In this document: positions 8,172-22,733 of the stretch, piece after piece | How the letters are laid out: the number at the start of each line of letters is the position of its first letter | How positions within the stretch are numbered: position 1 is the first letter of the stretch | Assembly: GCA_947259685.1 (NCBI GenBank) | Contig: CAMYNC010000013.1 | Coordinates: forward strand, 1 to 37,611 | Source of the DNA: an uncultured Desulfuromonadales bacterium | GTDB taxonomy: Bacteria; Desulfobacterota; Desulfuromonadia; Desulfuromonadales; Geopsychrobacteraceae | DNA: 37,611 bases | Direction: 5' to 3' | Translations under genes and position numbers: made by a program | Notes under the pieces: generated by a model | Seen by the model: only the letters and a program-made list of their open reading frames with translations | What the model was told of the DNA's origin: nothing | The model's database searches: none

Positions 8172-8279
8172 ATATTCCCTTTCAGATTCGAGTTCTTGAT
8201 TGCCCCGCCAGAACATCTGTCTACCTGGCCCACGCAGTACCGCGGGAAGCTGATAAAATACAGCTTCCCGATTTTTTAT
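8172..8279 (+). ncRNA. Candidate small RNA of about 105 nt
   Basis: The interval from the predicted transcription start (about 7 bases after the -10 element) to the end of the T-tract contains no plausible start codon with a ribosome-binding site. It ends in a very strong intrinsic terminator. Every gene for 5.8 kb upstream is on the other strand, so the terminator is not explained by a protein gene. I recognise no known RNA family. An alternative is that the hairpin blocks readthrough into the metalloprotease operon from antisense transcription of the efflux operon. Confidence 0.3.
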
Positions 8280-8280
8280 T
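8243..8280 (+). terminator. Strong intrinsic terminator with no upstream gene on its strand
   Basis: A perfect 10-bp stem (CGGGAAGCTG, 8243-8252, with 8261-8270) closes an 8-base A/T loop and is followed by ATTTTTTATT on the plus strand. The minus strand lacks a T-tract on the corresponding side, so it is directional. Confidence 0.7.
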
Positions 8281-8574
8281 ATTCCCTCTCCCGCTTGATC
8301 CCTCATTAATCTCTGATAGAAATAAAGACAGTCCAGATTGCAATCACGACATTCCCGACAGCGCCAATCCTGGGTTGAGGAGGGGGACGGAGAGCGACCA
8401 ATCTTTTGCGGACGAAGATGGCCGAGCTGCCGAAGGGTAATGAATCCTTGTGGTGTGTTCGGTCTTTGCTTTTTCTGGACTGCTTGGGCAAAGGAGATGA
8501 CCTAAACTCAAGGTGCCGGATGGCGGCTTCGGCAGAGCCTCCGGTGCTTCAACGGAAAAAGGGGGCTGCGGCTT

Positions 8575-10812
8575 ATGAGTTCATTAAACGGAGAAGTCAT
8601 TCTGGCGGATCAAGGGGTTGGCGATCCACTGCAGTTGCGGATTTACGGCGATGAGTTTTATGCCCGCCGCGAAACCTTGGACGGATACACAGTTATCTAC
8701 GATAGCCAGCAGCGGCGTTATTGCTACGCGACCTTGGCGGTCGGCAGGTTTGTCTCCACCGGGATTCCCGCCTACAAACCGGCACCAGCCAATTTGCGCA
8801 GACATCTGAAGGAAGATCCCGAGGTCCGTAACGAAAAGTTTGGCTTGCGCTACCAGCGGATCAGACCGGTAGAAGAGGATGCGAATACCGGCTTGACGCG
8901 TACCCTGGGTCCGGACGGCGGTCTGCTCACCGGCCGTAAGCTTCACCGGGGACAGGTGAGAGGGTTGACGGTGATTGTCGATTTTGACGATGTGCGCAGC
9001 AATATTTCCCAGGCCGATGTTGAGGCGATGTTCAATGCCGATAACTACTCGGAAAACGGCAATTTCTCTTCAGTGAAGGGATACTTTGAAACCGTTTCTT
9101 CAGGAAAACTGACCTACACAAACCTGGTGGTCGGCCCGGTTCGGCTCTCGAAACGCCGCAGCCACTACATCAACAATCTGTTGGTCAAAGAAGCGCTGGA
9201 TATTGTGGTGAATGAACTGCATGTCGATCTTTCCCAGTTCGATTCTAAAAATGAAGGCATCGTCGATGCGATTAATTTTCTCTATGCCGGAAATTCTCAG
9301 TATGACGGTAATCTCTGGCCGCACAATTCTTTTACCAGCCTGCAATATGGCAACATGAACGCTCACTACTATCAGCTGACCGGGCTTGGCTTGCACAAGG
9401 TGGATCTGCGGATCGGTACGATCTGCCACGAAAACGGCCATCTGCTCTGCCGCTTCCCGGATATGTACGATTATGGCAAACGGGATGGCGACCACGAGAA
9501 AAGTCAGGGGATCGGCAGCTACTGCCTGATGGGTTCGGGCAACCATCTCAACCAGCGACGCACCCCGTCGCCAGTCTGCGGCTATCTGCGGGATCTCGCC
9601 GGCTGGGTCGATACAATTATCGATTTGAACAATCCGGGGACTTATCGCGCCGAGCATGGCAAGTATAGCCAGATCATGAAGTTCAGCACGGAAAAGGCCA
9701 ACGAATATTTCATTGTCGAAAATCGCACCCAGTTGGGGCTGGATACGCATTCGCCGTCAAGCGGTCTCGCGGTACTGCACTGCGACACGCTAGGCTCGAA
9801 CGAGTGGCAGGAGGGCACGCGTAACAAGCACTATCAATGTGCGCTGGTCCAGGCCGATGGGCATCTTGACCTGGAGAACAACCGTAACACCGGTGATGCG
9901 GGTGACCTCTTTCAATCCCTCAGCGGGCTGGCACTCTCCAATACCACCACCCCTTCAAGCCGCGAGTGGGATGGCACCGATTCGGGACTGCAGATCCGCG
10001 ATGTGGCGGCGCCGGCCCCGGTGATTGAGTTCTCAGTTGGCAGTGCCGCGCCGAGCAATACGGTGCATGTGGAAACCTGGCCGAGCCTGGTGATCCCTGA
10101 CAACACTCCGAGCGGACTTTCCAGCGTATTGGCGGTTGCTGGTCGTGGTGGACTCAGCGCGATTTCGGTCAGCGTCGATATTATCCACAGCTGGATCAGC
10201 GACCTGAAAGTCGAGCTGCGCTCTCCGGCCGGGACCAGCGTGCTGCTGCATAATCGCGAGGGGAATGATGGCGACGATATCAAACGCAGCTGGAGCAGCG
10301 CTGACTTTGCCGAACTGCAAAGACTGCACGGCGAAGCGGTGCAAGGCGACTGGACCCTGCATCTGGTGGACCATGCCTCCGCCGATGTCGGCCGGCTGCT
10401 GTTCTGGAGTCTGGATCTGCAGCTTGCCGCCAGCACCGGCGGCGTCATCGAAGAACGGCTTGAGCCCCGCATCGCCATTCCGGATTCCAGTCCCGCCGGC
10501 ATCAGCAGTGTGATGCCGTTATCCCAGGCGGGCCAGGTCTCAGATATTCTGGTTGCGGTGGATATTGAGCATAGCTACATCGGCGATCTGCAGATCGAGT
10601 TGGTTGCTCCTTCCGGGCTGACCGCGCTCTTGCATAATCAGGAGGGCGACTGGCGGGACAACCTCGATCGCACTTATGACCGGAGCACAACCCCGGTGCT
10701 GCAGGGGTTTGTTGGCGAAGCGATCAGCGGCGATTGGCAGTTGCGGGTGCGTGACCTGGCGCCGATCGACCAGGGACAGTTAAATGCCTGGTCCTTGAAA
10801 ATTACCTACTGA
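8575..10812 (+). CDS. M6-family zinc metalloprotease with two C-terminal P/Homo B domains, no signal peptide
   Basis: The 745-residue protein has an N-terminal M6-type region (LRIYGDEFYARRETLDGYTV near residue 20). The peptidase core carries a zinc-binding HExxH at His285-Glu286-His289 within TICHENGHLLCRFPDMYDYG, followed by GIGSYCLMGSG, as in immune-inhibitor-A-like proteases. Two repeats of about 120 residues follow, near 497-619 and 620-745 (IPDNTPSGLSSV and IPDSSPAGISSV; DWTLHLVDHA and DWQLRVRDLA). These match the P/Homo B domain of proprotein convertases. M6 enzymes and P domains are usually secreted, but no signal peptide is visible. The frame has a stop at 8503 and no hydrophobic segment before the ATG, which also lacks a strong Shine-Dalgarno site. 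It sits 31 bp ahead of the CHAT gene and is probably co-transcribed. Family is confident; substrate and location are not. Confidence 0.87.
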   Translation: MSSLNGEVILADQGVGDPLQLRIYGDEFYARRETLDGYTVIYDSQQRRYCYATLAVGRFVSTGIPAYKPAPANLRRHLKEDPEVRNEKFGLRYQRIRPVEEDANTGLTRTLGPDGGLLTGRKLHRGQVRGLTVIVDFDDVRSNISQADVEAMFNADNYSENGNFSSVKGYFETVSSGKLTYTNLVVGPVRLSKRRSHYINNLLVKEALDIVVNELHVDLSQFDSKNEGIVDAINFLYAGNSQYDGNLWPHNSFTSLQYGNMNAHYYQLTGLGLHKVDLRIGTICHENGHLLCRFPDMYDYGKRDGDHEKSQGIGSYCLMGSGNHLNQRRTPSPVCGYLRDLAGWVDTIIDLNNPGTYRAEHGKYSQIMKFSTEKANEYFIVENRTQLGLDTHSPSSGLAVLHCDTLGSNEWQEGTRNKHYQCALVQADGHLDLENNRNTGDAGDLFQSLSGLALSNTTTPSSREWDGTDSGLQIRDVAAPAPVIEFSVGSAAPSNTVHVETWPSLVIPDNTPSGLSSVLAVAGRGGLSAISVSVDIIHSWISDLKVELRSPAGTSVLLHNREGNDGDDIKRSWSSADFAELQRLHGEAVQGDWTLHLVDHASADVGRLLFWSLDLQLAASTGGVIEERLEPRIAIPDSSPAGISSVMPLSQAGQVSDILVAVDIEHSYIGDLQIELVAPSGLTALLHNQEGDWRDNLDRTYDRSTTPVLQGFVGEAISGDWQLRVRDLAPIDQGQLNAWSLKITY

Positions 10813-10843
10813 ATAACGCGCAACCAGCGGGAGGTTGACACCT

Positions 10844-13800
10844 ATGGTCAAGCTGAGAATTCCGGGCCAACAGGACAGCAGTCTGGCATCTTCGGAGCTT
10901 GAAGGGAAGCGGGCCAGGGGGCTCTTTTCGGTCACTCCCAAGGCGGCTTTCAGGATCGACGGTGGGCGGGCGCTCAGCGGAGAAGCGCTGGCACTGCAGG
11001 AAGCCGACGTTGATGAAAATGATCTGGTCGAAATTGAGCTGGAAGGGGGCGTACGGCTCTGGACCAGGGTCGATCGCCTGCGTGAGGATCTAGGCACCCA
11101 GGCGCAACGCGGTGGTGCCGAGGATGAACTTGTACTGCCGGTGGCGCTCCCCTTCGGCACCCCGAGTCGCGGCTTGGGCTCCTGGATTCTCAAAGCACTG
11201 CGGATTTCCAAGGTCGATCTGGCTGAAGACCTGGCCGAGAAGAGCGCGGTGGCGATTGCCCGCAAGCTTGAAGATCAGTTGGAACCGAAACCGGGCCTGT
11301 ATCGCTGTAGCTTCGGTGATCGCTGTGAGTTAAGCGCCGTTGGCGACCAGGATCCTGCCTTCAGCAGCGAGCGGCCGGCGCTGCTGTTTATCCATGGCAC
11401 TGCTTCAAGCACCGAGGGGAGTTTCGGCGGACTCTGGGAGCGTGACCAGCTGCCGGTACTCAGAGAGTTGCACAGCTTTTACGAAGGGCGGTTGTTCGCC
11501 TACCAGCACCGCACCCTCACCGAAAGTCCGATCGAAAATGCCCTGGCACTGGTCAAACAATTGCCGGCCGGCGCCAACTTGCATATCGTCAGCCATTCCC
11601 GTGGTGGCCTGATCGGCGAACTGCTCTGCCGGAGTTCCCTGGCAGACGGCCGCGAACCCTTCGACGCCGATGAACTTGAGCTGTTCCAGGCCGCGGAGCG
11701 GGCGGTTGATCGCCAGCAGCTGGAAGAACTGGGCAGGCTGCTCAAGGCCAAGGCGTTTAAAATCGAGCGTTTTCTCCGGGTTGCCTGCCCGGCCCGTGGC
11801 ACCACCCTCGCCTCGGGACGACTTGACCGCTACTTCTCGATTATCGTCAACGCCATCGGCTTGATTCCAATCCTGCGCCTGAGCCCGGTATACGAACTGG
11901 CCACCGGGTTTCTGCTGACGGTCATCAAGACTCGGACCAAGCCGGATGAGCTGCCGGGTCTGGAAGCGATGATGCCTAGTTCGCCCCTGGTGCGGATGTT
12001 GAATCGTCCCGGCGTCACCAGTGAGGCCGATCTGGCGGTGATTGCCGGGGACATCGAAGGAGAAGGGCTCTGGGGCCGGCTTAAAGTTCTCGCCACCGAC
12101 CTGTTTTTCCGTGAGGATCATGACCTGGTGGTCAATACCAGTGCCATGTATGGCGGGATGGAACGCGTGGACGGTGCCCGCTACTTTTTCGATCAGGGTC
12201 CGGAAGTCTGTCATTTTAACTATTTCCGTAATGAAGAGACCACTCGGAAGCTGCAAACAGCCCTGACCGAAGGCTCCAGCGTGGGATTTATCCCCCTGAA
12301 GCCGCCGCGCGAAATTTCCGAGCGCGCTTACCGAGGGCCGGGGACCCAACCGCTGCCGATGGTGTTTGTTCTGCCGGGGATTATGGGCAGTCATCTGACC
12401 GTGGATGAGAACCGCATCTGGCTCGATCCCCTCGACCTGGCCCGGGGTCGTTTCAAAAAGCTGAAGATCGACGCTGAGCGGGTGGTTGCTGAGGCTCCGC
12501 TGGCCAGCGGTTATCTGGATCTTATCGAACATCTGCAGGGCACGCATGAGGTGATCCCTTTCCCCTTCGATTGGCGCCGCTCGATTCTGGAAGAAGCGCG
12601 CCGCCTGGCCGATGCCGTGGCCAGCGCTCTTGATCAGGCTGAAGCGGCCGAGCAGCCGGTCCGCCTGCTCGCGCACTCCATGGGTGGCCTGGTGGCCCGG
12701 GCGATGATTGCCGAACGGCCCGACCTCTGGCAGCGGATCTGCCAGCATCCCGGTGGCCGGTTGATCATGCTCGGGACTCCCAATGGCGGTTCCTTTTCCA
12801 TCCCCCGGCTGCTGCTTGGCCAGGAACGGATTTTGCGCCAGCTGAACTTGCTCGATTTAAGGCACGAGCAGAAAGAGCTGTTGAAGATTATCTCCGCTTT
12901 TCCGGGGGTGCTGGAGATGCTCCCAAGCCATTCGGAGCACAATTTTTTCGACAAGCAGATCTGGCGCGAGCTGCGTGACGCCGATCCACAAGGCTGGATT
13001 TCCCCGGTCGAGAAAGCCCTCAAAAACGCCAAGGCCTGCCGCGAAGTTCTGGATAACAGCCCCATCGATCCTGAACGGATGCTGTATGTCGCCGGGCGGG
13101 CGCCGGCCACCCCGGTCGAATTGCAGATCGATGCGCAGCAGCAAGGCAACAAAGCGATCCGTTTTCTGGCCACCAGCCGCGGCGATGGCCGGGTCCCCTG
13201 GAGCACCGGCATCCCCAGTGGGGTTCGCACCTGGTATCTGGATGTCGTCCATGGTGACCTGGCCGATCATCGGCCGGCCTTCACTGCGTTGCAGGACTTG
13301 CTCGAGGATGGTCATACCACCCGGCTGCGCGACACTCCGCCTTTGGCTGAGCGGGGAGCGAGCGAACTTTTCGAGCTGCCGGCCGAGGAACTGGAACAGT
13401 TCCCCAACCGGGAGGATCTGTTTGCCGCCGCCCTCGGGGCTTCGACCCCGCTGTTCAAGCCGCAGGCCAAACAGGCCCCGGTGCGGGTGTCGGTCGCCCA
13501 CGGCAACCTGGCTTTTATCGAAAATCCCGTGGCGGTTGGCCACTATCAGGGCGATACCATCGCCAGTGCCGAAGCCTTTCTTGACAACCGTCTGAACGGT
13601 TTGCTGCGGCAGCATCATCACCTTGGGCTTTATGCCGACGCGCTGGAAACGGCCGAGGTGTTTTTTAACCCTGCCGACTACGCCCAACCTGGTGGTGCTA
13701 TTGTCGTTGGCCTTGGTAAAGTTGGTGAATTGACTGCCGGAACCCTGACTCGAACCTTTGCCCACGCTGCTCTCAAATACGCGACGGCGATTGCCGAAAC

Positions 13801-16237
13801 CGGCCTGGTCCGCTTTACCAGTGCTGGCGCAGGGCCCCGGAAGGCGACTATTTCGACTCTGTTGATCGGCACTGGGGCCGGTGGCATGTCGGTGGAAGAT
13901 TCCGTGTCGGCGATTCTACGTGGGATTAAGCAGGCCAACCTCTCTCTGGCGGAAGCCCGTCTGGAAAACCGGGTGGTGATTGACGCCGTCGAATTTCTGG
14001 AGCTTTGGGAGGACCGCGCCATTCAAGCGGCGCATGCGCTGGAGCGGGTCTCCCAGGAAGCTGAGCTGGGCGCTTATTTCGATTGTCGCTGCCATCTCCG
14101 CACCTTGCCGGGCAGAAAATCCCGGGTGACATTCGATGAGCCCGCTGGCTGGTATCACCGCCTGCAGATCCTCGGCGAAAGCAATGGCGCACTGCGCTTC
14201 AGCGCTTTGACCGGAGCGGCGCGTTCCGAGGTGGCCCTGGTTAAGACCCAACGGGCGCTGGTCGACCGGTTTGTCGAGTCGTCGATCCGCACCACCGCCT
14301 CAAATAATGATCTGGCGAAAACCCTCTTCGAACTACTGATTCCTAATCGGCTCAAAGAGCAGGCGCCCAATCGCCAGGATCTGGTGCTGGTTCTCAATGA
14401 AGACTCTGCCTGTTATCCCTGGGAACTGATGCAGGATCGCTGGGGGCAGGATGATCGTCCGCCGGCGGTCACCGCAGGGCTGTTGCGGCAGTTGGAAACC
14501 CAGGTATTTCGCGAGCGGGTGCAGACCGTCGCCAAAAACGCTGCGCTGGTGATTGGTGATCCTCTCAGTTCTGCGCCGGTGTTGAAGGGCGCCCAGGAAG
14601 AGGCCCAGCTGGTCGCCGACTTGCTGGCCGGGCAGGCGTTTACGGTAGTGCCGCATATCCGGGTCAACGCCGATGCTATCGTGCATGCGCTGCATGCCGA
14701 TGCCTATCGGGTTTTGCATCTGGCCGGCCATGGCGTCTACCAGCATCAGACCGGCAGTCAGAGTCAACGCTGTGGCGAGTGCGGGTCTGTTCACCGCTGC
14801 GAAGGGGAATCAGTCAGCGGTATGCTGATCGGCGACGGGGCCTTTTTAACTCCGGCCGATGTCGAACAGATGCGTCAGGTTCCGGAGCTGGTGTTTATCA
14901 ACTGCTGCCACCTGGGGCGGATCGAAGGTCAGGAGCCGCTGGAAAGGCCGCAACTTCATCGGCTGGCCGCCAATCTGGCGGCCCAGTTTATCCGCATGGG
15001 GGTGCGTGCCGTGGTGGCTGCAGGCTGGGCGGTCGACGATGGCGCGGCAAAAACCTTTGCCGGCTGCTTCTATCGGGAAATGCTGGCCGGAGCCCCCTTC
15101 GGCAGGGCGGTATTGGCTGCTCGCAAAGCGGCCTATCTCACCCACCCGGGGATCAACACCTGGGGCGCTTACCAATGTTATGGTGACCCCGACTTCACAC
15201 TTGCCAAAACCGCTGGCAGGCGCTCCAGTAGGCGTAGCCCTGCCACCGAGATCCCGAAGTTCGTCGCGCCCAGCGAAGCTGTCAACCAGCTGGAGAACCT
15301 GGCCAGCGACGCCATGACTGCTTCCGACGCCTGGGTTGAGGTGTTACGCAAGCAGGTCAAAGGCATCCGCGACAACCTGCCACAGCCCTGGCGAAAACTG
15401 GCGGCGGTGCATGCCGCATTGGGCAAGGCGTTCGGTGAACTCGATCAGTTTGAAGACGCCATCCATCATTACCAGGCCGCTCTGGCCGCTTCCGACGAAA
15501 GCCTGCCGGTTGCTGCGGTCGAGCAATTGGCTAATCTCAGGGCGCGCTGGAGCGTGGAAATTTATCACCAGCAAAGTCAGAAAAAGCCACCTCAGGCAGG
15601 TTCCTTGAAGCTTCCAAGCCCGGCGGAACTGATTGCCGCTGCCAAGCAGGACCTTGGCCATCTGCTGCAGCTGAATCAAACCGTCGAGCGACTTTGTCTG
15701 CTGGGAGGAACCTATAAGCGCGAGGCGATGACTATCAGTGATCCGCTGAAACGCTCTCTGGCTCTGGCCGAGATGGGCAAGGCTTACCAGCATGCGCATG
15801 AAAAAGCCAACCTGGAGCGGGGGGAGGTTTATCCTTACCCGCTGCTGAATTGGTTAACGGCCGATCTGCTGCTCAGTTGGTTGCGTAAAGGGCATAGCCG
15901 TGACACAGCCTACCAGCGCTGGCTCGATCGTGCCCAGACGGCAGCTGAACGCCTAGATAGGGAAAGCCCCTCGTTCTGGAACAGCATTATCATTGCCGAA
16001 ACAACTCTCCTGCGGCATCTCGATTCCGGAGATCTGGAAAAGCACCTGAGCGAAATTCTTGATGGTTATCTCCACGGCAAACGGCGTGGCGCCTCTCCGC
16101 GAGAATTCCGTTCGGTGCGCGAACACCTCGATTTTCTCCTCGAAATGCTCAGCAGCAAGGGCATGCCTGCAGTTCAGGCGGGTCAATATGAAGCCTTGAC
16201 CAAGCTGAATACCGAACTGCTGGCCGCGCTGGGGTGA
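10844..16237 (+). CDS. Giant multidomain protein: two alpha/beta-hydrolases, M17-N-like domain, CHAT protease, TPR-like tail
   Basis: The ATG at 10844, with GGGAGG 9 bases upstream, gives 1797 residues; a TTG at 10835 is less likely. Domains in order (residues): an unassigned N-terminal region (1-170); hydrolase 1 with oxyanion-type His184-Gly185, nucleophile Ser252 in SHSRGG, Asp425/427 and His457; hydrolase 2, LCAT-like, with PGIMGSHL at 511, Ser612 in AHSMGGL, LGTPNGGS, Asp781 and His803; a domain at about 880-1075 resembling the N-terminal domain of M17 aminopeptidases (VGHYQGDTIASAEAFLD, GGAIVVGLGKVGELT); a CHAT domain at about 1160-1410 with His1296 in HLAGHG and Cys1355 in INCCHLG; and a TPR-like helical tail from about 1490. 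All catalytic residues appear intact. CHAT domains are caspase-like cysteine proteases. Coupling one to lipase-like domains suggests proteolytically controlled membrane or lipid attack, which is inference. It is followed by a terminator. Confidence 0.85.
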   Translation: MVKLRIPGQQDSSLASSELEGKRARGLFSVTPKAAFRIDGGRALSGEALALQEADVDENDLVEIELEGGVRLWTRVDRLREDLGTQAQRGGAEDELVLPVALPFGTPSRGLGSWILKALRISKVDLAEDLAEKSAVAIARKLEDQLEPKPGLYRCSFGDRCELSAVGDQDPAFSSERPALLFIHGTASSTEGSFGGLWERDQLPVLRELHSFYEGRLFAYQHRTLTESPIENALALVKQLPAGANLHIVSHSRGGLIGELLCRSSLADGREPFDADELELFQAAERAVDRQQLEELGRLLKAKAFKIERFLRVACPARGTTLASGRLDRYFSIIVNAIGLIPILRLSPVYELATGFLLTVIKTRTKPDELPGLEAMMPSSPLVRMLNRPGVTSEADLAVIAGDIEGEGLWGRLKVLATDLFFREDHDLVVNTSAMYGGMERVDGARYFFDQGPEVCHFNYFRNEETTRKLQTALTEGSSVGFIPLKPPREISERAYRGPGTQPLPMVFVLPGIMGSHLTVDENRIWLDPLDLARGRFKKLKIDAERVVAEAPLASGYLDLIEHLQGTHEVIPFPFDWRRSILEEARRLADAVASALDQAEAAEQPVRLLAHSMGGLVARAMIAERPDLWQRICQHPGGRLIMLGTPNGGSFSIPRLLLGQERILRQLNLLDLRHEQKELLKIISAFPGVLEMLPSHSEHNFFDKQIWRELRDADPQGWISPVEKALKNAKACREVLDNSPIDPERMLYVAGRAPATPVELQIDAQQQGNKAIRFLATSRGDGRVPWSTGIPSGVRTWYLDVVHGDLADHRPAFTALQDLLEDGHTTRLRDTPPLAERGASELFELPAEELEQFPNREDLFAAALGASTPLFKPQAKQAPVRVSVAHGNLAFIENPVAVGHYQGDTIASAEAFLDNRLNGLLRQHHHLGLYADALETAEVFFNPADYAQPGGAIVVGLGKVGELTAGTLTRTFAHAALKYATAIAETGLVRFTSAGAGPRKATISTLLIGTGAGGMSVEDSVSAILRGIKQANLSLAEARLENRVVIDAVEFLELWEDRAIQAAHALERVSQEAELGAYFDCRCHLRTLPGRKSRVTFDEPAGWYHRLQILGESNGALRFSALTGAARSEVALVKTQRALVDRFVESSIRTTASNNDLAKTLFELLIPNRLKEQAPNRQDLVLVLNEDSACYPWELMQDRWGQDDRPPAVTAGLLRQLETQVFRERVQTVAKNAALVIGDPLSSAPVLKGAQEEAQLVADLLAGQAFTVVPHIRVNADAIVHALHADAYRVLHLAGHGVYQHQTGSQSQRCGECGSVHRCEGESVSGMLIGDGAFLTPADVEQMRQVPELVFINCCHLGRIEGQEPLERPQLHRLAANLAAQFIRMGVRAVVAAGWAVDDGAAKTFAGCFYREMLAGAPFGRAVLAARKAAYLTHPGINTWGAYQCYGDPDFTLAKTAGRRSSRRSPATEIPKFVAPSEAVNQLENLASDAMTASDAWVEVLRKQVKGIRDNLPQPWRKLAAVHAALGKAFGELDQFEDAIHHYQAALAASDESLPVAAVEQLANLRARWSVEIYHQQSQKKPPQAGSLKLPSPAELIAAAKQDLGHLLQLNQTVERLCLLGGTYKREAMTISDPLKRSLALAEMGKAYQHAHEKANLERGEVYPYPLLNWLTADLLLSWLRKGHSRDTAYQRWLDRAQTAAERLDRESPSFWNSIIIAETTLLRHLDSGDLEKHLSEILDGYLHGKRRGASPREFRSVREHLDFLLEMLSSKGMPAVQAGQYEALTKLNTELLAALG

Positions 16238-16349
16238 TTCAGGCGCTGCCGGTCTCGCCAATAGTTCGCAAGCGGGACGCTGTGAAATCGCAGCTTGCCG
16301 CTTTGCGTTCAGCATCGGTTCTGGACAGTATCCAAGCAACTTTTGTCAA

Positions 16350-16398
16350 TAATCCGACCCCCAAAAGGAATTTTGTTGGGTCGGATTAGTTATTTTTT
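16350..16398 (+). terminator. Intrinsic terminator of the M6-CHAT operon
   Basis: An 11-bp inverted repeat (TAATCCGACCC, 16350-16360, with 16378-16388) encloses a second short stem (CAAAA/TTTTG). It is followed by a T-rich run (TATTTTTT, 16391-16398) on the plus strand, 113 bases after the CHAT gene stop. Confidence 0.8.
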
Positions 16399-16498
16399 AA
16401 AAAAGATGTGTCTGAATATTGACACATTACAGAGATTAGATTATTGTTGGCTCATATTTAAGCTTCTGAACCTTTTTAAATAGATTGACGATATATAT

Positions 16499-17554
16499 AT
16501 GATTGCAGGAATGACAGCGGATGGCTCCTCCTTCGGAGGCATGATCGGCCGTTCAGCGCAGATGCTGGAAATGTTTGAGCTGATCGCCACGGTGGCTGAA
16601 GAAGGCGAGAGTACGGTGCTGATTCAGGGTGAAAGCGGCACCGGTAAAGAGTTGATTGCCCGGGCCATTCATGAAAAAAGTCCCCGCAAAGCGGGCCATT
16701 TTGTACCGGTCAACTGTGCTGCTATTCCAGACGAACTGCTGGAAAGCGAGCTCTTTGGTTATGTTAAGGGAGCCTTTACCGGTGCCCAGCAGTCGAAGAT
16801 CGGACGGGTACAGTTTGCCGATGGCGGAACCTTGTTTTTGGACGAAATCGGTGACATGAAACCGATTCTGCAGGCCAAGCTGCTGCGGGTTCTGCAAGAG
16901 CGCGAAGTCGAACAGGTTGGTGGCGTGCGGCCGATGAAGGTCGATGTGCGGGTGATTGCCGCAACCCATCAGAACCTGGAAAAACTGGTCGAAGAGGGAC
17001 GTTTCCGGGAAGATCTCTATTATCGCCTGGCGGTGATTCCGTTGGCGGCACCGGCATTAAAAGAGCGCAAGGAAGATATCCCCTTGCTGGTCGATCGGTT
17101 TGTGCAGCAGTTCAGTCGTCGCAAGTCGGACACCCCGACCAGGCTCGCTCCAGTTGTCATGCGCAGCCTACAGGCCTATGGTTGGCCGGGAAATGTGCGG
17201 GAACTGGAGAACCTGATGCAGCGACTGGTGATTCTGCATCGCGGCAAGCTGATTACCTTGAAGGAGCTGCCGGAGAAATACCGCTGCGAACCCTTGCCGG
17301 AGGAACCTGCCTGCCAGGCGCCATTGCAGCAGCCGTCGGGAAGCATCGCTGCCACCGCAGGGGTGGCTTCGCCCGCGACCCAGTGGTCGGAAGAGGGGCT
17401 CGACTTCAATGGTCTGATCAGTGAGTTCGAAGATCGGTTGATCATGCAGGCCCTGGACCGCAGCGGTGGCAACAAGAAGGAAGCGGCTCGCCTGCTCAAC
17501 CTGAAGCGAACCACGCTGATCGAGAAAATCAAAAAGAAAAATCTGTCGGTTTGA
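16499..17554 (+). CDS. Orphan sigma-54-dependent transcriptional activator (AAA+ and Fis-type HTH, no sensory domain)
   Basis: The 351-residue protein consists almost only of the sigma-54 interaction AAA+ domain and a C-terminal Fis-type helix-turn-helix. Visible motifs are Walker A GESGTGKE (44-51), the sigma-54 contact loop GAFTGA (91-96), Walker [13 protein letters not shown] with Asp115-Glu116, the arginine-finger region [17 protein letters not shown], and the HTH with [16 protein letters not shown]. No receiver, PAS or GAF domain precedes the core, and an in-frame TAG at 16481 prevents an N-terminal extension. The ATG at 16499 has no good Shine-Dalgarno site; a second ATG at 16511 is possible. 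It would hydrolyse ATP to open sigma-54 promoters. Its position between a terminator and the convergent che operon makes flagellar/chemotaxis genes or the CHAT module possible targets, but no target is shown. Confidence 0.9.
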
Positions 17555-17576
17555 AGCCGAAAATTTTAGCCGAATT

Positions 17577-17616
17577 TAAAAAGGCGCCCTGATGAAGATC
17601 GGGGCGCCTTTTTTAT
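17577..17616. terminator. Bidirectional terminator between the sigma-54 activator and the che operon
   Basis: A 9-bp stem (AAGGCGCCC, 17581-17589, with 17602-17610) has an A-run before it and a T-run after it, so it can act on both strands. It lies just after the activator stop and beyond the last gene of the che operon. Confidence 0.85.
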
Positions 17617-17720
17617 CGCGATGTTTATTCCTCTTCAGACCGGTTTTTAGGTTGAACCTAGAGACTGCAGTTGGGCGCGAAAAAGATGTTGTGCGGACTT
17701 TCGTGATTCAACCGTTGTTT

Positions 17721-19451
17721 CTAGTTTAAAATATGCTGGCTGACTTTTGCTTGAATTTCGTCACTGCTGGCCGGCAGGACCAGGATGTCCCGGGCACCAT
17801 ATTTGATGGCCCTCAGCACCGCTGAACGGGTCCATTCCGGTCCGGCGAAAATCATCGGCGGCAGCGGCCGACCGGACGACTGCAGCTTGATGGCGGTCGC
17901 AAAACCTTTTTCACTGACCTCGGACATTAACAGAAACACCCCGACCACCTGGTTCTGCTGATAGCTGGCTTTGATATCGTCCTGAAAGGACAGGTTTTTC
18001 ACCTCGTAGCCGGCCGCAGCAAGAATCTCGGCAAAGGGTGGTGCAGCATCCGCCTGTTCGTGAATAATCATCACCACCGGTGGCCCGGAAGCAGCGGGTG
18101 TGGCGGTTGGTTCAGTCGTCGGGCCTCCCGCTGCAGCGGGTTCTGCTGTTGCCGTTGTTTGGGCTCCCTGGCTGGCGTCGAGATCGAACAGTTCGGCAGG
18201 AAACAGCAGCTGCACCCGTTTGAGCTGGTAGCCTTCCATTGCGAGGGCGAAGGAGGCGAGGTAGTAATCGCCAGCCGGGAAGGGTTGCTCTGAGTCGGGC
18301 TCGACCTGGGTCGGAACCAGCACCTCGGTTTCAGCTTTGACAAAGCGCAGCGCCTGGGGGTAGCGATCTGCAAAGACTTGCGTCAGTCCGCCCGCCAGAA
18401 TGTTGGCCACTTCGCCGAATGCATCGGAAACTTCCTCGTCAAACTGGCCTTTTTCGGCTTGCTCGTTAATCTGCTCCTCGGGGAGCATGATCATGGTGCC
18501 ACCAAGGATAACCGCGTCGGCGACCTCAAGCGCCAGATACCCCTGCCCTTGGCGATCACCGCTGACCTGAAGTTGGGTCAGGGTGGATTTTTCCACGCAG
18601 TGGGAAGAGAAAAACTCCTCCTTGGTGGTCATCACCAGCTGCAAGTCGGCAGAGCTAAGCTCTTGACCGATCAAGGCACCGACCTCTTCGCTAACCTGGG
18701 TAATCGTCGCCTTGAAAACCGTGTCGAGCAATTTTTTGGCATCGGCAAACGCTGGCTTGGGGGCGGGGGCGACGGTCGGCTCCGCAGGGGGTGGTTCGGC
18801 AACTGGCTGCTGCTCTGCTGCTGGTGCGGTTTCGGCGGCTGGTTCAGCTGGCGCTTCTGGCGCTTCGGCGGCAGGACTCCCAGCTAACTCGAAAATTGCT
18901 GCGGGTACGACCAATTCGAGCAGCCCGAGGTCTTTTTCTCCGGCACTCAGGATGCAGCTGGAGACATGGTAATTGCCAGGAGGAAAGGGCTGCTCGCCGG
19001 CGGTATCGACCTTGTCGGGAATCAGCTCTTCGACCGATTCCTTGATGAAGCGCACAGTTTTTGGATACTTATCGACGAAGCTCTGGGTAAACACCCCGGC
19101 AACTATATTCGCCACCTCGCCGAAGGCATCAGCCAGTTCGCCATCCAGTTTGCCGAGTTCGGCGTGCTCTGAGATCATCTCCTCAGGCAGCATGATCAGC
19201 GTGCCGCCGAGGAAAATGGCGGTGTCGATCTGGGTGAGAAGGTAGGCTTGGCCAGGCTGGTCACCGTTGACGGTGATTCGGGTCAGCGCAGTTTTATTAC
19301 GCTCGGTCTGAGTGAAAAAGTCTTCTTTGGAGACAAGGCGAAGCTGGATGTCGCCACAGCTTAACTCCTGTCCAAGCAAGGTGCCGATTTCTTCGGCCAG
19401 GTTTTCCAGCGCCGCTTTGCAGACGACGTCAACAGTGGCCAGTTGCTCCAA
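17721..19451 (-). CDS. Tandem CheX/CheC-like phosphatase-domain protein with degenerate C-terminal receiver
   Basis: The 576-residue protein contains two related CheX/CheC-type domains, about 1-190 and 240-430, separated by an alanine/proline/glutamate-rich linker. Each carries the acidic/asparagine signature D-x3-E-x2-N (Asp108, Glu112, Asn115; Asp343, Glu347, Asn350) in DAFGEVANI. In known family members Glu and Asn help water attack phospho-CheY. A second linker leads to a receiver-like fold at 456-576. It starts VVMIIHEQ instead of an acidic pair, has LLMSE where the phospho-aspartate should be, and LVLPAS where Lys-Pro is expected, so it probably cannot be phosphorylated. The start is a TTG with a nearby GAGGG. 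The frame is shared with the upstream gene across one TAA and 12 codons. It is the last gene of the che operon. Confidence 0.8.
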   Translation of the reverse strand: MEQLATVDVVCKAALENLAEEIGTLLGQELSCGDIQLRLVSKEDFFTQTERNKTALTRITVNGDQPGQAYLLTQIDTAIFLGGTLIMLPEEMISEHAELGKLDGELADAFGEVANIVAGVFTQSFVDKYPKTVRFIKESVEELIPDKVDTAGEQPFPPGNYHVSSCILSAGEKDLGLLELVVPAAIFELAGSPAAEAPEAPAEPAAETAPAAEQQPVAEPPPAEPTVAPAPKPAFADAKKLLDTVFKATITQVSEEVGALIGQELSSADLQLVMTTKEEFFSSHCVEKSTLTQLQVSGDRQGQGYLALEVADAVILGGTMIMLPEEQINEQAEKGQFDEEVSDAFGEVANILAGGLTQVFADRYPQALRFVKAETEVLVPTQVEPDSEQPFPAGDYYLASFALAMEGYQLKRVQLLFPAELFDLDASQGAQTTATAEPAAAGGPTTEPTATPAASGPPVVMIIHEQADAAPPFAEILAAAGYEVKNLSFQDDIKASYQQNQVVGVFLLMSEVSEKGFATAIKLQSSGRPLPPMIFAGPEWTRSAVLRAIKYGARDILVLPASSDEIQAKVSQHILN

Positions 19452-19487
19452 AGTGCCCTCTTCTATGGTGGTCGGTGCGGCAGGAGC

Positions 19488-19946
19488 TTAATTCAGGCTG
19501 TACTTCATCTCAACGAAAAACCGCCCCTGCTCAAGAATGAACGGGATTATAACCCGATTACTTTTGGTAGGGGAAGCGATGGTAAAAGATTTCCCCGAAA
19601 TTGCGGTCGGGATCGATAGTTCCAGGGCGACATCTTCTGCAGCAAATGCTTCTTTGAGGCTACCGGCCAGCATGTTGGAAATCTCGCCGAGGGCGTCTTT
19701 CACATCGGCATCGATCTCTTCGATCTCCATCCCGAGCATCGCCCCGGTGATCGCCAGACCGGCCGGTTTTGCGCAATGGATGCCGAGCATGCCGGTAAAA
19801 TCCCCGCTTAAGCCGATCATGGCTGAAACGTGACAATCAAGCACCTCCTGGCCCACCGCTAAGGCCTCCTCTGCTGAGATATCCAGAAAGATCATGGTGC
19901 TGAATATCTCTTCGGTCGCCTGAACGATTTTGTTAGCAAATTCCAC
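19488..19946 (-). CDS. CheX-like chemotaxis phosphatase
   Basis: I place the start at a GTG (19946), which aligns exactly with the start of the adjacent paralogue and has a G-rich Shine-Dalgarno 7 bases upstream. A TTG at 19958 would add four residues. The 152-residue product is a single CheX/CheC-type domain with DALGEISN (D-x3-E-x2-N) and a proline 22 residues after the Asn. These are the features of CheY-P phosphatases that lack a CheC-type amphipathic docking partner. It is a close relative of the next gene upstream (shared ATxEIFSxMI and GMEIEEID/GMEVEEID blocks) and probably arose by tandem duplication. Cytoplasmic; expected to dephosphorylate one of the CheY proteins of this operon. 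Confidence 0.85.
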   Translation of the reverse strand: MEFANKIVQATEEIFSTMIFLDISAEEALAVGQEVLDCHVSAMIGLSGDFTGMLGIHCAKPAGLAITGAMLGMEIEEIDADVKDALGEISNMLAGSLKEAFAAEDVALELSIPTAISGKSFTIASPTKSNRVIIPFILEQGRFFVEMKYSLN

Positions 19947-20005
19947 AGTAGCCCCCAAAAAACCAGTTGGAAAATAATGATCGGAACTGAACTGCCGGCA
20001 CCAGG

Positions 20006-20467
20006 TTAACCATCCTGGCGGATCTGCAGTTCAACCATGAAGCTGTTGCCGTTAAAGATAAACGGTACGGTCACAGTCTCTGCATTGGTCAGGCAATCGA
20101 CGGCATACTCTTGGCCATGTACCGCCGAAGGCATCGACAACTTGACATCGCTGCCTTTGGGATCGATGGCGGTCTTCATGCTGCCGGCGAGCATATTAGC
20201 TAACTCGCCGATGGCATCGCAGACATCCTCATCGATCTCTTCGACTTCCATGCCGAGAAAGGCGGCGGTGACAGCCAAAGCCGCCGGCTTGGTCAAATGG
20301 ATAGCCAGCAGACCTTTGGTGGTTCCGGCCAGGCCGACCAGCCCGGAAATACTGTCGGTGAGCATGTCGTTTTGGCGAATAAAGGGTTCGCCAGGACTCA
20401 CTTCCAGCATGATCATACTGGAGAATATTTCCTGAGTTGCATCTATGATTTGTTGCGTTGTTTCCAC
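20006..20467 (-). CDS. CheX-like chemotaxis phosphatase (paralogue)
   Basis: A GTG start at 20467 preceded by AAGGAG at good distance gives 153 residues. The catalytic signature DAIGELAN is present, and a proline follows 22 residues after the Asn. The protein is the same length as its downstream neighbour and aligns with it from the first residue. Its place between cheY (20548-20919) and another CheX-like gene supports a role in removing phosphate from CheY. Which of the two CheY-like proteins it acts on cannot be told from sequence. Confidence 0.86.
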   Translation of the reverse strand: METTQQIIDATQEIFSSMIMLEVSPGEPFIRQNDMLTDSISGLVGLAGTTKGLLAIHLTKPAALAVTAAFLGMEVEEIDEDVCDAIGELANMLAGSMKTAIDPKGSDVKLSMPSAVHGQEYAVDCLTNAETVTVPFIFNGNSFMVELQIRQDG

Positions 20468-20547
20468 AAATGTCTCCTTGAAACGCCGGGCAGCTCAGGC
20501 TTGCCGCCCGGCAATGAGTAAACACTTACGGTTCAGGCTGGATCCTC

Positions 20548-20919
20548 TTATAGCCAGGGACCGAGGGTTTCGTTGATCAGGTCGGGGGTGAAGGGCTTTT
20601 TTACCGCCCCCTTGGCGCCGTAAGATTTGGCTTCGTCGATGATATCGGCGCCGGTTTCAGTCGAGATCATGATCACCGGGATATCTTTGATGGCCGGATC
20701 TTCCGACTTGGCTTTGAGAAATTCCAGGCCGTTCATGTTCGGCATATTGATGTCACTTAAAACGACATCAACGGAATTATCGGCCAGGGAGGCCAGGGCT
20801 TCCTGGCCATCGCCGGCTTCCAGGATCTGGTCAAAGTCCAAGCCGGCCTGGCGCAAAGCGCGCGAAACGATTTTCCGCATGGTGTTGGAATCATCGACGA
20901 TCAGGACAGTCTTTCCCAT
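20548..20919 (-). CDS. cheY: CheY chemotaxis response regulator
   Basis: A stand-alone receiver domain of 123 residues. The acidic pair Asp9-Asp10 in IVDDSNTMRK, phospho-acceptor Asp56 in LSDINMPNMNG, Ser86 in MISTET and Lys108 in VKKPF are all intact. The NxMRKI sequence after the acidic pair is typical of true CheY rather than other receivers. AAGGAG lies 9 bases before the ATG. Phosphorylated by CheA, it should bind the flagellar switch or another output. It lies directly between CheX-type genes. Confidence 0.93.
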   Translation of the reverse strand: MGKTVLIVDDSNTMRKIVSRALRQAGLDFDQILEAGDGQEALASLADNSVDVVLSDINMPNMNGLEFLKAKSEDPAIKDIPVIMISTETGADIIDEAKSYGAKGAVKKPFTPDLINETLGPWL

Positions 20920-20969
20920 TTTTATTACTCCTTTAAGTGGTCAATATTAAATCGGTTCGAGGGTGGTTT

Positions 20970-21446
20970 TCAGTTATTCAGGCTAACCAGTGGGGTTCCG
21001 CTGGCCATCAGCAGCAGGGGGTGTTCCTCTCCGGTCATCAGTTTCCAGACAATTGAATTCTCTTCCAGCTCAGGCAGCGGCCCCTCGCCAGGTTCCGGCA
21101 GCCCCAGTTTGAAGGTCTGGTCCTCTTTGAGCAGTTTAGTCATAAATAGCCCGGCAATTGTATTGAGCAGCTCAAACAGAATATCGTTCATCAGCAGCTG
21201 GTTGATTTCGGTCTCTGCCAGCCCGAGAATCGCACCGGTGAGAGATTTAAGCACCGCTTCAGGCATGGCCAGCCGCAATTCTCCCTGCACTGGATCCTGG
21301 ATCAGGATGCTGGTCCAGACCAGCTCGCCAGCGGGGATCTTAAAATCCTGGTCATAGTGTTCCATCGCTTCGGTGAAGGCCATGTTTTCAAAGGTCTGGC
21401 TGACGGCCGCTATCATCGCTAAATAAAGTGGGGTTGGTTCGCTCAT
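20970..21446 (-). CDS. Divergent CheX/CheC-like chemotaxis protein
   Basis: The ATG at 21446 with GGAG 7 bases upstream gives 158 residues (MSEPTPLYL start). The frame is open to 21488, but that start would overlap the preceding gene. Overall sequence is far from the other CheX-like genes here, but NDILFELLN preserves D-x3-E-x2-N and a proline lies 22 residues after the Asn, as in the paralogues. That supports a CheC/CheX fold with a probable phosphatase centre. The rest of the core is leucine-rich. A regulatory rather than catalytic role remains possible. Confidence 0.72.
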   Translation of the reverse strand: MSEPTPLYLAMIAAVSQTFENMAFTEAMEHYDQDFKIPAGELVWTSILIQDPVQGELRLAMPEAVLKSLTGAILGLAETEINQLLMNDILFELLNTIAGLFMTKLLKEDQTFKLGLPEPGEGPLPELEENSIVWKLMTGEEHPLLLMASGTPLVSLNN

Positions 21447-21477
21447 GCAGATCTCCATACTTGGTGCGGAGGCAGGG

Positions 21478-21852
21478 TCAATCTTCAAGAAAATCTTCCA
21501 GGGCGGCCATCATCACCGGCGGTGAAACCGGCTTATTTATCACCTGGCGTGCGCCCATTTCGAGCAACTGGGTTTCCTTGGCTGGATTGCCGGCGCTGGT
21601 AATAACAATCACCGGCAATTCGCAGAGCTTGGGGCTGGCTTTGACCCATTTGAGCAGGGTTTCACCATCCATCACCGGCATATTCAGGTCGGTCAGCAGC
21701 AGGTCGGGGATCTGTTCTTTGGCCGCCGCCAGCGCTTCTTTGCCATGTTCGGCTTCGACCATTTCGGCATCACCCAGCCCGATGATTTCGAGACAGCGCT
21801 TGATAAACATCCGCGCCGTGGCAGAGTCGTCAGCAATAATGATCCGTTTCAT
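21478..21852 (-). CDS. CheY-like single-domain response regulator (second)
   Basis: The 124-residue receiver has Asp8-Asp9 (IIADDSATARM), phospho-acceptor Asp55 (LLTDLNMPVMDG), Thr85 and Lys107 (INKPVSPP). The ATG at 21852 shares its A with the TGA stop of the HDOD gene, so translation is likely coupled. It differs from the other CheY around the acidic pair (TARM rather than TMRK), so it may have another partner, such as a phosphate sink or a non-flagellar output. Confidence 0.9.
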   Translation of the reverse strand: MKRIIIADDSATARMFIKRCLEIIGLGDAEMVEAEHGKEALAAAKEQIPDLLLTDLNMPVMDGETLLKWVKASPKLCELPVIVITSAGNPAKETQLLEMGARQVINKPVSPPVMMAALEDFLED

Positions 21853-22733
21853 CAATTATTTCCCTCGTTTTCAGCCAGTGATTCCTGTAGCTTGGTGAAC
21901 TCTGTGTCGACCGTCAGCATCACATTTGCCAGGGTGTTAGGTGATAGGGTTAAGTAGTCAGTGTAGGCCAGGTCAAGGCGGTACTGCAGGCTGTCGGAGC
22001 CGGTGCCGAAACCACCCAGCATGGCAATGCTGTCGCCCAGATGGACAGCGTAAACCAACGCCCGGTTCGCTTCAGTCGCTTGGCTTGGTTGATGGTGATA
22101 GCGGATCACCTCGACCAGCGCTTCCGGCAGTTGCCAGACCTTGGCAAGTTCATAGCCGGCCTGGGTATGATCAAAACCGACCATCGCTGCTTCAGCCGCC
22201 AGGTAGTCGCCGCTGTCTTCGGTAGTAATCATCTGAATGGCAGCGGGTGCGGTCCCCTGCAGATAGTCGGAAATCAGGGCTTTGCCGATATCGTGCAGCA
22301 GGCCGGCGGTGAAGGCCAGGTCGGGGCTGATATCGGCATCGCTCTGGGTGACCACTTCGCGTGCGGCGATCGCGGTGCGCAGGTCGTGCCGCCAGAGATC
22401 GCCGCCAGTCGCTTCGTAGCCGGCCAGTTCCTTGTCAAACAATTTGGCGGCACAGTCACCGATGGCGATACTGACGATGATCCGCTCACCCAGATAGGAG
22501 ATGGCGCGGTCGATGGATGTGATGTTGCTCAGCAGGCCAAAGGCCGCCGAGTTGACAACTTTCAATACCCGGGCGGTCAGTTTGGCATCGGTTTTCACCA
22601 GGTTGACGATATCGATCAGGTCATGATCTTCCTGGGCGGTCAGCTGCAGCAGGCGGTTGGCGCTCGGTGACAACAGCGGGACCGCATTGACGATGGCCAG
22701 TAATTCGCTTTGCGAAAGTTTTTTACTCATCAT
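21852..22733 (-). CDS. HDOD-domain signalling protein
   Basis: The 293-residue protein is a single HDOD domain: LLSPSANRLLQLT, VLKVVNSAAFGL, ISYLGERIIV and GLLHDIGKALI with His147-Asp148. HDOD proteins are HD-superfamily relatives that usually lack hydrolase activity and act as signalling scaffolds. This one keeps the HD pair but I cannot identify the full metal-ligand set. It begins six bases after cheD ends, with two adjacent ATG codons and a GGGGG leader, and overlaps the following CheY-like gene. Its place inside a che operon suggests a link between chemotaxis signalling and another output. Confidence 0.88.
   Translation of the reverse strand: MMSKKLSQSELLAIVNAVPLLSPSANRLLQLTAQEDHDLIDIVNLVKTDAKLTARVLKVVNSAAFGLLSNITSIDRAISYLGERIIVSIAIGDCAAKLFDKELAGYEATGGDLWRHDLRTAIAAREVVTQSDADISPDLAFTAGLLHDIGKALISDYLQGTAPAAIQMITTEDSGDYLAAEAAMVGFDHTQAGYELAKVWQLPEALVEVIRYHHQPSQATEANRALVYAVHLGDSIAMLGGFGTGSDSLQYRLDLAYTDYLTLSPNTLANVMLTVDTEFTKLQESLAENEGNN

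Follow-up and report, generated by a model that had tools for sequence, protein, structure and literature searches.

What joins a metalloprotease gene to the giant protease-lipase gene that starts 31 bp behind its stop codon, and what could the two do together? The question is raised by a contig of 37,611 nucleotides (CAMYNC010000013.1, assembly GCA_947259685.1) from an uncultured Desulfuromonadales bacterium of the Geopsychrobacteraceae, here called the window, in which a gene for an M6 metalloprotease is followed by a gene for a giant protein that combines lipase-like domains with a CHAT protease. A preliminary description, made from the sequence alone, had treated the two genes as one module and proposed defence or suicide as its role. 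Part of this proposal stands: the giant is a conflict-type CHAT/lipase protein, whose relatives lie beside TIR, caspase, clostripain, patatin-TIR, nSTAND1 and SIR2 genes and, once, beside type I restriction genes. The fixed two-gene module does not stand. The better unit is the giant with a swappable partner, and the exact M6-giant pair is rare. With a probability of about 0.5, the locus is one version of a mix-and-match conflict module of Thoeris/caspase-like type, serving cell death or phage defence; a CHAT-phospholipase that senses a signal would act in it together with an exchangeable pro-protease.

The Giant CHAT/Phospholipase Protein

The lipase-like and CHAT domains attributed to the giant are borne out by matches to DUF7379, LCAT and CHAT, and two further domains were added, a macro-like domain and a TPR-S domain (Table 1). 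The open reading frame (ORF) list places the start at a TTG at 10835; the ATG at 10844 was chosen because it fits the N-terminal consensus of the family, MxxLRIPG. In this numbering, Ser252, Ser612, His1296 and Cys1355 are invariant in all 34 aligned sequences; the catalytic serines and the cysteine had been numbered correctly. The CHAT domain, with its His/Cys dyad, is separase/Craspase-like. The region between it and the lipases resembles a macro domain in predicted structure, with Foldseek matches to 2dx6_A (TMt 0.73), which we take to be a macro domain, and macroH2A (TMt 0.66-0.69), while its match to PF02789 (E 2.2e-4) is below the cut-off. The phospholipase and CHAT folds are likewise recovered in the model of the giant. 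A sequence search of solved structures returned no match for this protein, and no N-terminal signal was seen in it. Homologues number 4529 at E <= 1e-20 among 7993 scored; of the 120 listed, 16 were seen by eye to contain a TIR domain (PF13676) within the same protein.

Table 1. Features of the M6-giant locus in the window (positions count from the first nucleotide of the window).
Feature	Position	Strand	Remarks
Terminator-like hairpin separating the leader from the divergent efflux operon	8243..8270	+	Terminator scan
Diverged c-di-GMP-I (GEMM-I)-like aptamer	8353..8434	+	RF03167, 25.0 bits, E 0.0011
Terminator-like stem with U-run; would capture the aptamer's 3' half (ON-switch topology)	8420..8474	+	Stem kept in three aligned copies
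M6 metalloprotease gene, 745 aa	8575..10812	+	No visible export signal
Giant CHAT/phospholipase protein, 1797 aa from ATG	10844..16237	+	ATG fits family N-terminus
DUF7379 alpha/beta hydrolase, residues 180-268, Ser252	11381..11647	+	E 5.4e-36
LCAT/lysosomal phospholipase A2-like domain, residues 503-826, Ser612, Asp781	12350..13321	+	LCAT E 7.7e-9
Macro-like domain (Peptidase_M17_N-like), about residues 879-1087, GTGAGG at 1009	13478..14104	+	Placed by exclusion
CHAT protease domain, residues 1097-1458, His1296/Cys1355	14132..15217	+	E 1.2e-28
TPR-S domain, residues 1536-1672	15449..15859	+	PF20308, E 3e-10
Operon terminator, hairpin then U-run	16350..16388	+	-21 kcal/mol, z -4.43

Changing Partners of the Giant

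The neighbourhoods of 33 loci were compared (25, and 8 fetched later), of which 29 hold giants and four (L118, L192-L194) hold shorter CHAT relatives that lack the lipases. Outside this set are two truncated pieces (L121, L125), two copies of the L142 locus on other plasmids (L141, L145) and a short CHAT relative with TIR neighbours (L144); among the plasmid hits, H10, which covers the lipase part only, was fetched, and H5 and H9 were not. Within the set, L115 and L189 run into the end of their contigs, and the frames of L114 and L117 are broken.

A second protease lies directly upstream and in the same direction at 10 of the 33 loci (6 of the 29 giants and all 4 shorter relatives). It is the M6 protease in the window, a clostripain (C11) in L112, L113, L118 and L187, and a caspase (C14) in L123, L191, L192, L193 and L194. 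Elsewhere the upstream gene encodes a TIR-PASTA protein (L109, L111), a TIR-TPR protein (L110, at 575 bp; L115), a patatin-TIR protein (L114, at 315 bp), a ThsB-like TIR-REC protein (L120, at 260 bp, its TIR domain matching ThsB models at E 3.2e-52), a peptidoglycan-binding protein (L107, L108), an amidase (L122), a periplasmic-binding protein with nSTAND1 (L140) or a solute-binding protein (L142). L136 meets its contig end upstream, and L188-L190 have no known partner type there. A TIR gene occurs within about 4.5 kb, on one side or the other, at 11 of the 33 loci (L109, L110, L111, L113, L114, L115, L120, L188, L190, L191 and L192). The eight later loci, which were not picked for their partners, have a protease upstream in five cases and a TIR gene nearby in four, with the limit that L192-L194 may be kin. 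For the C11 and C14 genes of L187 and L191-L194 and the TIR genes of L188 and L190-L192, the assignment comes from tblastn matches to previously annotated partners and not from Pfam, so new partner types would be invisible in these loci.

Other conflict families near giants are nSTAND1, SIR2_2 and patatin, and a giant copy on an Azotobacter plasmid adjoins type I restriction, Fic, recombinase and insertion-sequence (IS) genes. Some of these loci have features of their own. A dense conflict cluster in L109 (13246-19589, minus strand) brings together TIR-PASTA, patatin, nSTAND1-pYEATS and SIR2_2 genes next to a giant of 2166 aa, and also holds a 224-aa protein of unknown type that BLAST clustering places in five loci. 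Two Acido-Lenti-1 RNAs lie in opposite orientation between the TIR-TPR gene and the giant of L110 (6462-6562). The open frames of L192, L193 and L194 (1011-1054 aa) match the half of the giant from the macro-like domain onward, and each stands directly behind a C14 gene.

The spread of the giant is patchy. In genome groups drawn around a carrier, the giant occurs in 14/244, 4/299 and 5/118 members, the group of 118 lying partly within the class of the 244; in groups drawn around a non-carrier it occurs in 2/297, 2/345 and 7/198. Ten plasmid records match the giant, seven of them over at least 80% of its length; five match the M6 protease, none over 80%.

The M6 Metalloprotease

The protein encoded upstream is a member of Peptidase M6, as first described, with a TIGR03296 match of 164 bits (E 6.8e-48) against a cut-off of 110.8 and P-domain matches at E 2e-40. 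A prodomain-like N-terminus (about residues 1-125) precedes the M6 domain (132-402) and two P domains (about 494-620 and 620-745), and the modelled fold is zymogen-like. The HENGH motif, of the HExxH zinc type, occupies residues 285-289, with H285, E286 and H289 invariant in 34 aligned homologues; Glu286 had thus been named correctly. In the same 34 proteins no N-terminal hydrophobic signal was seen by eye (no signal-peptide predictor was run), which agrees with the lack of a signal peptide reported for the window protein. A sequence search of solved structures with the protease matched P domains only. Its homologues at E <= 1e-10 number 1350 among 7994 scored. As a separate observation, in four Methanothrix/Methanosaeta loci (L038, L041, L046, L071) a class-I glutamine amidotransferase-like gene follows the M6 gene by 11-14 bp (by Pfam for L038, by BLAST clustering for the others).

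Is the Pair Conserved?

The preliminary description had proposed co-occurrence of the two genes as a check, and the pair largely fails it. M6 loci were taken from species genomes (the best 80 of 116; 69 with at least 1.5 kb downstream, 11 with less), and none of the 80 has a giant beside the protease. The best other match there is a CHAT-like fragment adjoining the M6 gene of L009 (E 8e-5); this fragment (12339-13061, minus strand) carries an LAGHG motif and possibly represents a decayed M6-CHAT neighbour pair. A giant-like match anywhere in the genome was found in 4 of 44 M6 genomes searched. These results, together with the remnant described below, led us to reject the fixed two-gene module.

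The history of the locus can be followed within the order of genome G267 (118 genomes), in which an M6 match occurs in six genomes (two full length, four P domains only) and the giant in five. Both genomes with a full-length M6 (G075, G013) also hold the giant, on another contig and preceded by a peptidoglycan-binding gene. The locus L106 of G267 itself is syntenic with the window, sharing the chemotaxis genes, the sigma-54 activator and a giant of 81.6% protein identity; its giant starts within about 145 bp after the leader. Just 5' of this giant, an in-frame remnant, QGQQNALSLDVFY-stop, matches the M6 C-terminus at 8 of 13 residues, whereas the next best of 666 stop-anchored 13-mers in L106 reach 5 matches. 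The M6-giant pair therefore appears older than the split of the two lineages, the protease having been lost later and the giant kept.

Single cases link the protease to the partners of the giant. The M6 gene is followed in the same direction by a TIR gene similar to the TIR-PASTA gene of L111 in L005 (E 2e-55), by an amidase similar to that of L122 in L002 (E 3e-43), and by a peptidoglycan-binding gene similar to that of L115 in L047 (E 5e-111). These cases suggest that the M6 protease and the giant draw on a shared partner pool.

A Riboswitch-Like Leader

A leader absent from the first description precedes the M6 gene. It resembles the c-di-GMP-I (GEMM-I) riboswitches, which bind cyclic di-GMP (c-di-GMP) or cGAMP, in keeping the P1b pairing and in having a terminator downstream; by hand mapping, both bases of one P1b pair depart from those of the family, and by the same mapping G20, A47 and C92, which we take to be ligand-contact positions, are kept. 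It is unlike them in its score, far below the RF01051/RF03167 gathering cut-off (25.0 bits against 59, nothing in the window reaching gathering), and in three non-standard pairs in the RF03167 alignment, which count against the identity of the leader. Our own model R1, built from 18 riboswitches of the order and a second copy in L106, itself a relative of the window leader, scores it at 26.7 bits (E 4.9e-4). Folding of the whole 141-nt leader gave no support (z -0.65). A terminator stem that takes up the 3' half of the aptamer is described for the pilM ON-switch in passages of PMC9262584. The leader (8276-8479) is conserved in L106 at 88.7% identity over 204 bp, against 77.5% for the DNA of the giant. 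With its terminator, this c-di-GMP-I-like leader may gate expression of the genes behind it.

Two broader proposals were rejected. The leader is not a trait of the family, as no c-di-GMP-I riboswitch reached gathering in 16 further giant loci, and M6 loci are not generally under GEMM control: R1, searched on 50 of the 80 M6 loci and on L137 and L138, gave E <= 1 only in the last two, and these matches were not counted because they have the opposite orientation and lie ahead of a small ORF. They are strong c-di-GMP-I riboswitches in their own right (L137, 5363-5461; L138, 3036-3134; plus strand), about 500 bp past the M6 stop, and in L137 the small ORF resembles by eye a flagellar rod protein. 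Since RF01051 occurs in 104 of the 118 genomes of the order, the leader of the window may be ordinary local regulation. The second copy in L106 exceeds the cut-off (53.5 bits against 35) and heads a stretch (13774-19865, minus strand) whose two large genes, coding for about 1076 and 853 aa, have no Pfam match; the first shows a weak tail-fibre match, and both lie upstream of the giant's own leader.

Flanking Genes

The terminator and the unrelated neighbours reported for the pair were both found again. None of 200 shuffles gave a hairpin as good as the one behind the giant. The hairpin at 8243-8270 is weak evidence alone, because shuffles led us to expect 8.3 terminator-like sites and the scan returned 9; a promoter scan (3 sites against 3.0 expected) was uninformative and was not used. 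By Pfam, a divergent resistance-nodulation-division (RND) efflux operon lies 5' of the pair and a sigma-54 activator with a chemotaxis cluster 3' of it, the immediate flanking genes being that of an HlyD-type protein and that of the activator. The chemotaxis cluster (17721-21488, minus strand) contains four CheX-domain genes, with a CheY-like gene among them. An HDOD protein (21852-22733) weakly matches Cas3_HD (E 5.7e-5), which is taken as a shared HD fold.

Comparison with Known Systems

Pfam already names the domains of the giant, and databases annotate members of its family as CHAT proteins. Listings and passages of the open-licence literature searched contained no text with 'DUF7379' or 'TPR-S domain' and no recognised description of this architecture. 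Pfam was run on 24 ORFs of the window, smaller or overlapping ORFs being outside the scan, and among these 24 no gasdermin, Cas7-like, MBL, secretion-system or VMAP family was found, in agreement with the earlier remark that gasdermin and CRISPR genes are missing; CRISPR arrays were not searched for. No PADLOC model fits the pair, which is not a PADLOC-listed defence system.

The closest comparison is with Thoeris types II and IV. Passages of PMC11204291 describe macro domains of ThsA (TM-macro ThsA) that bind ADP-ribose (ADPR) and IAD, and in those of PMC12847820 the type IV TIR product N7-cADPR activates a caspase-like protease. The locus shares with them a macro-like fold and a caspase-like protease, and a share of the giant's relatives have TIR beside or fused to them; it differs in joining the macro-like domain, the CHAT protease and two hydrolases in one protein, and in having no TIR gene in the operon or elsewhere among the 24 scanned ORFs. 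Craspase (TPR-CHAT/Csx29, type III-E CRISPR) and SAVED-CHAT differ from the giant, which has lipase domains and no gRAMP/Cas7-11 or SAVED partner among the scanned ORFs. A gasdermin-protease pair is not present either, the genes on both sides being those named above.

Other defence systems also set an enzyme gene beside a protease gene. As parts of PMC12799240 report, defence proteases activate pro-nuclease partners, and HamM/protease-HamA, AVAST and Canu share this adjacency with our locus; here the partner is a protease and not an MBL nuclease (no MBL match adjoins the protease), and its activation is putative. In the VMAP systems, according to passages of PMC7159879, an alpha/beta-hydrolase gene is always beside a caspase. 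The likeness of these VMAP/MoxR ternary systems to the giant lies in a caspase-superfamily domain accompanied by an alpha/beta-hydrolase, and the difference in the fusion of both domains in one protein and in the missing MoxR and VMAP genes: of the combination of MoxR ATPase, vWA and VMAP, the scan yielded only an OmpA-vWA protein (39-974) and a sub-threshold AAA_3 match to the sigma-54 activator.

The M6 protease itself invites comparison with the immune inhibitor A (M6) zymogens. Immune inhibitor A carries an export signal, unlike the window protein and its aligned relatives, in which no such signal is visible; the window protease also has two P domains.

Proposed Mechanism and Alternatives

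In the proposed module, the macro-like and TPR-S domains would act as receptors for a signal of infection or stress, probably a nucleotide of ADP-ribose type like those that TIR enzymes produce. The signal would switch on the separase-like CHAT protease, and the LCAT/phospholipase A2 (PLA2)-like and DUF7379 hydrolases, once freed, could attack membrane lipids and kill the cell. The upstream gene would be the swappable partner: where relatives have a clostripain (C11) or a caspase (C14), the partner here would be an M6 zymogen that carries a prodomain at its N-terminus. CHAT, or the M6 protease itself on another cue, would activate M6 as a second, executing protease. The c-di-GMP-I-like leader and its terminator may gate expression. 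A bolder version is doubtful: a family of single-protein immune receptors would unite a macro-like sensor of ADP-ribose type with a PLA2-like lipase and a CHAT protease. In a two-protease cascade its members would trigger pro-proteases that can replace one another (caspase, clostripain, metalloprotease), and a riboswitch of the c-di-GMP family would arm the system here.

Several observations weigh against the mix-and-match module. The defence role is inferred. The flanks in the window are housekeeping genes and not a defence island, and the 24 scanned ORFs include no TIR or other signal-making family. PADLOC models match nothing in the M6 protease and only HamA in the giant (E 0.062), taken as chance, and no relative was found in the phage and viral collections searched, so that a phage or viral origin was rejected. 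The ten loci with a protease upstream are not independent events, because four are shorter CHAT relatives and L192-L194 may be kin. At other loci the upstream gene is a housekeeping-looking nitroreductase (L119) or of unknown type (L116, L124, L143), or there is no partner (L106, L117, L135, L139). The M6 protease is mostly alone, with a co-directional gene within 100 bp in 14 of the 69 M6 loci with room, and is dispensable in L106. Homologues of giant-neighbourhood genes are, overall, not enriched beside M6 (5/141 at rank 1; 2 to 6 of 59-125 at ranks 2-8), so the shared partner types are suggestive only.

Some of these points would fit neighbours without a partnership, the giant being a self-sufficient CHAT/lipase effector and the M6 protease an independent enzyme whose gene came to sit behind the leader, in front of the giant, and later disappeared from one lineage. 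The 80 M6 loci without a giant, the loss in L106 and the separate contigs of G075 and G013, where a peptidoglycan-binding gene precedes the giant, speak for this; the 31 bp spacing behind one conserved leader, the ten proteases directly upstream and the single cases of common partner types speak against it, and we consider it unlikely. The leader brings in another possibility, that c-di-GMP turns on developmental lysis or the remodelling of wall, membrane or biofilm instead of defence. The frequency of RF01051 in the order would suit such a role, as would the amidases and peptidoglycan-binding proteins that accompany the giant (L107, L108, L122) or M6 (L002, L030, L047), and in passages of PMC6456294 the GEMM-Ib switches of Geobacter precede cytochrome, pilus and polysaccharide genes. 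We regard it as improbable, because neither protein shows a signal peptide, the families found as neighbours (TIR, caspase, nSTAND1, SIR2) are of conflict type, and R1 finds the leader at E < 0.01 only in the window and L106 among 28 sources searched.

Export is a still weaker prospect. That the two are lipase and protease effectors carried into other cells by an injection or contractile system is very improbable: the 24 scanned ORFs include no secretion-system family, and the size of the giant (1797 aa), with its TPR-S and macro-like domains, is more in keeping with a receptor inside the cell. M6 and P-domain proteins are usually secreted, as a nutritional protease and lipase would be; with no N-terminal signal in the 34 aligned M6 proteins or in the giant, that use is hardly credible.

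Significance

The study of caspase-like immunity in bacteria is still young; it has connected caspase-like proteases with TIR signals, with CRISPR and with gasdermins. In the family of the giant, a single chain carries a phospholipase, a separase-like protease and a putative sensor of nucleotides, and it is paired with exchangeable second proteases. The partner series M6, C11, C14 and TIR makes the mix-and-match module directly testable with a few two-gene constructs. If it is true, bacteria would offer an example of a caspase-style protease cascade with a metalloprotease in the role of the caspase, and phage defence would be linked to an attack on membrane lipids.

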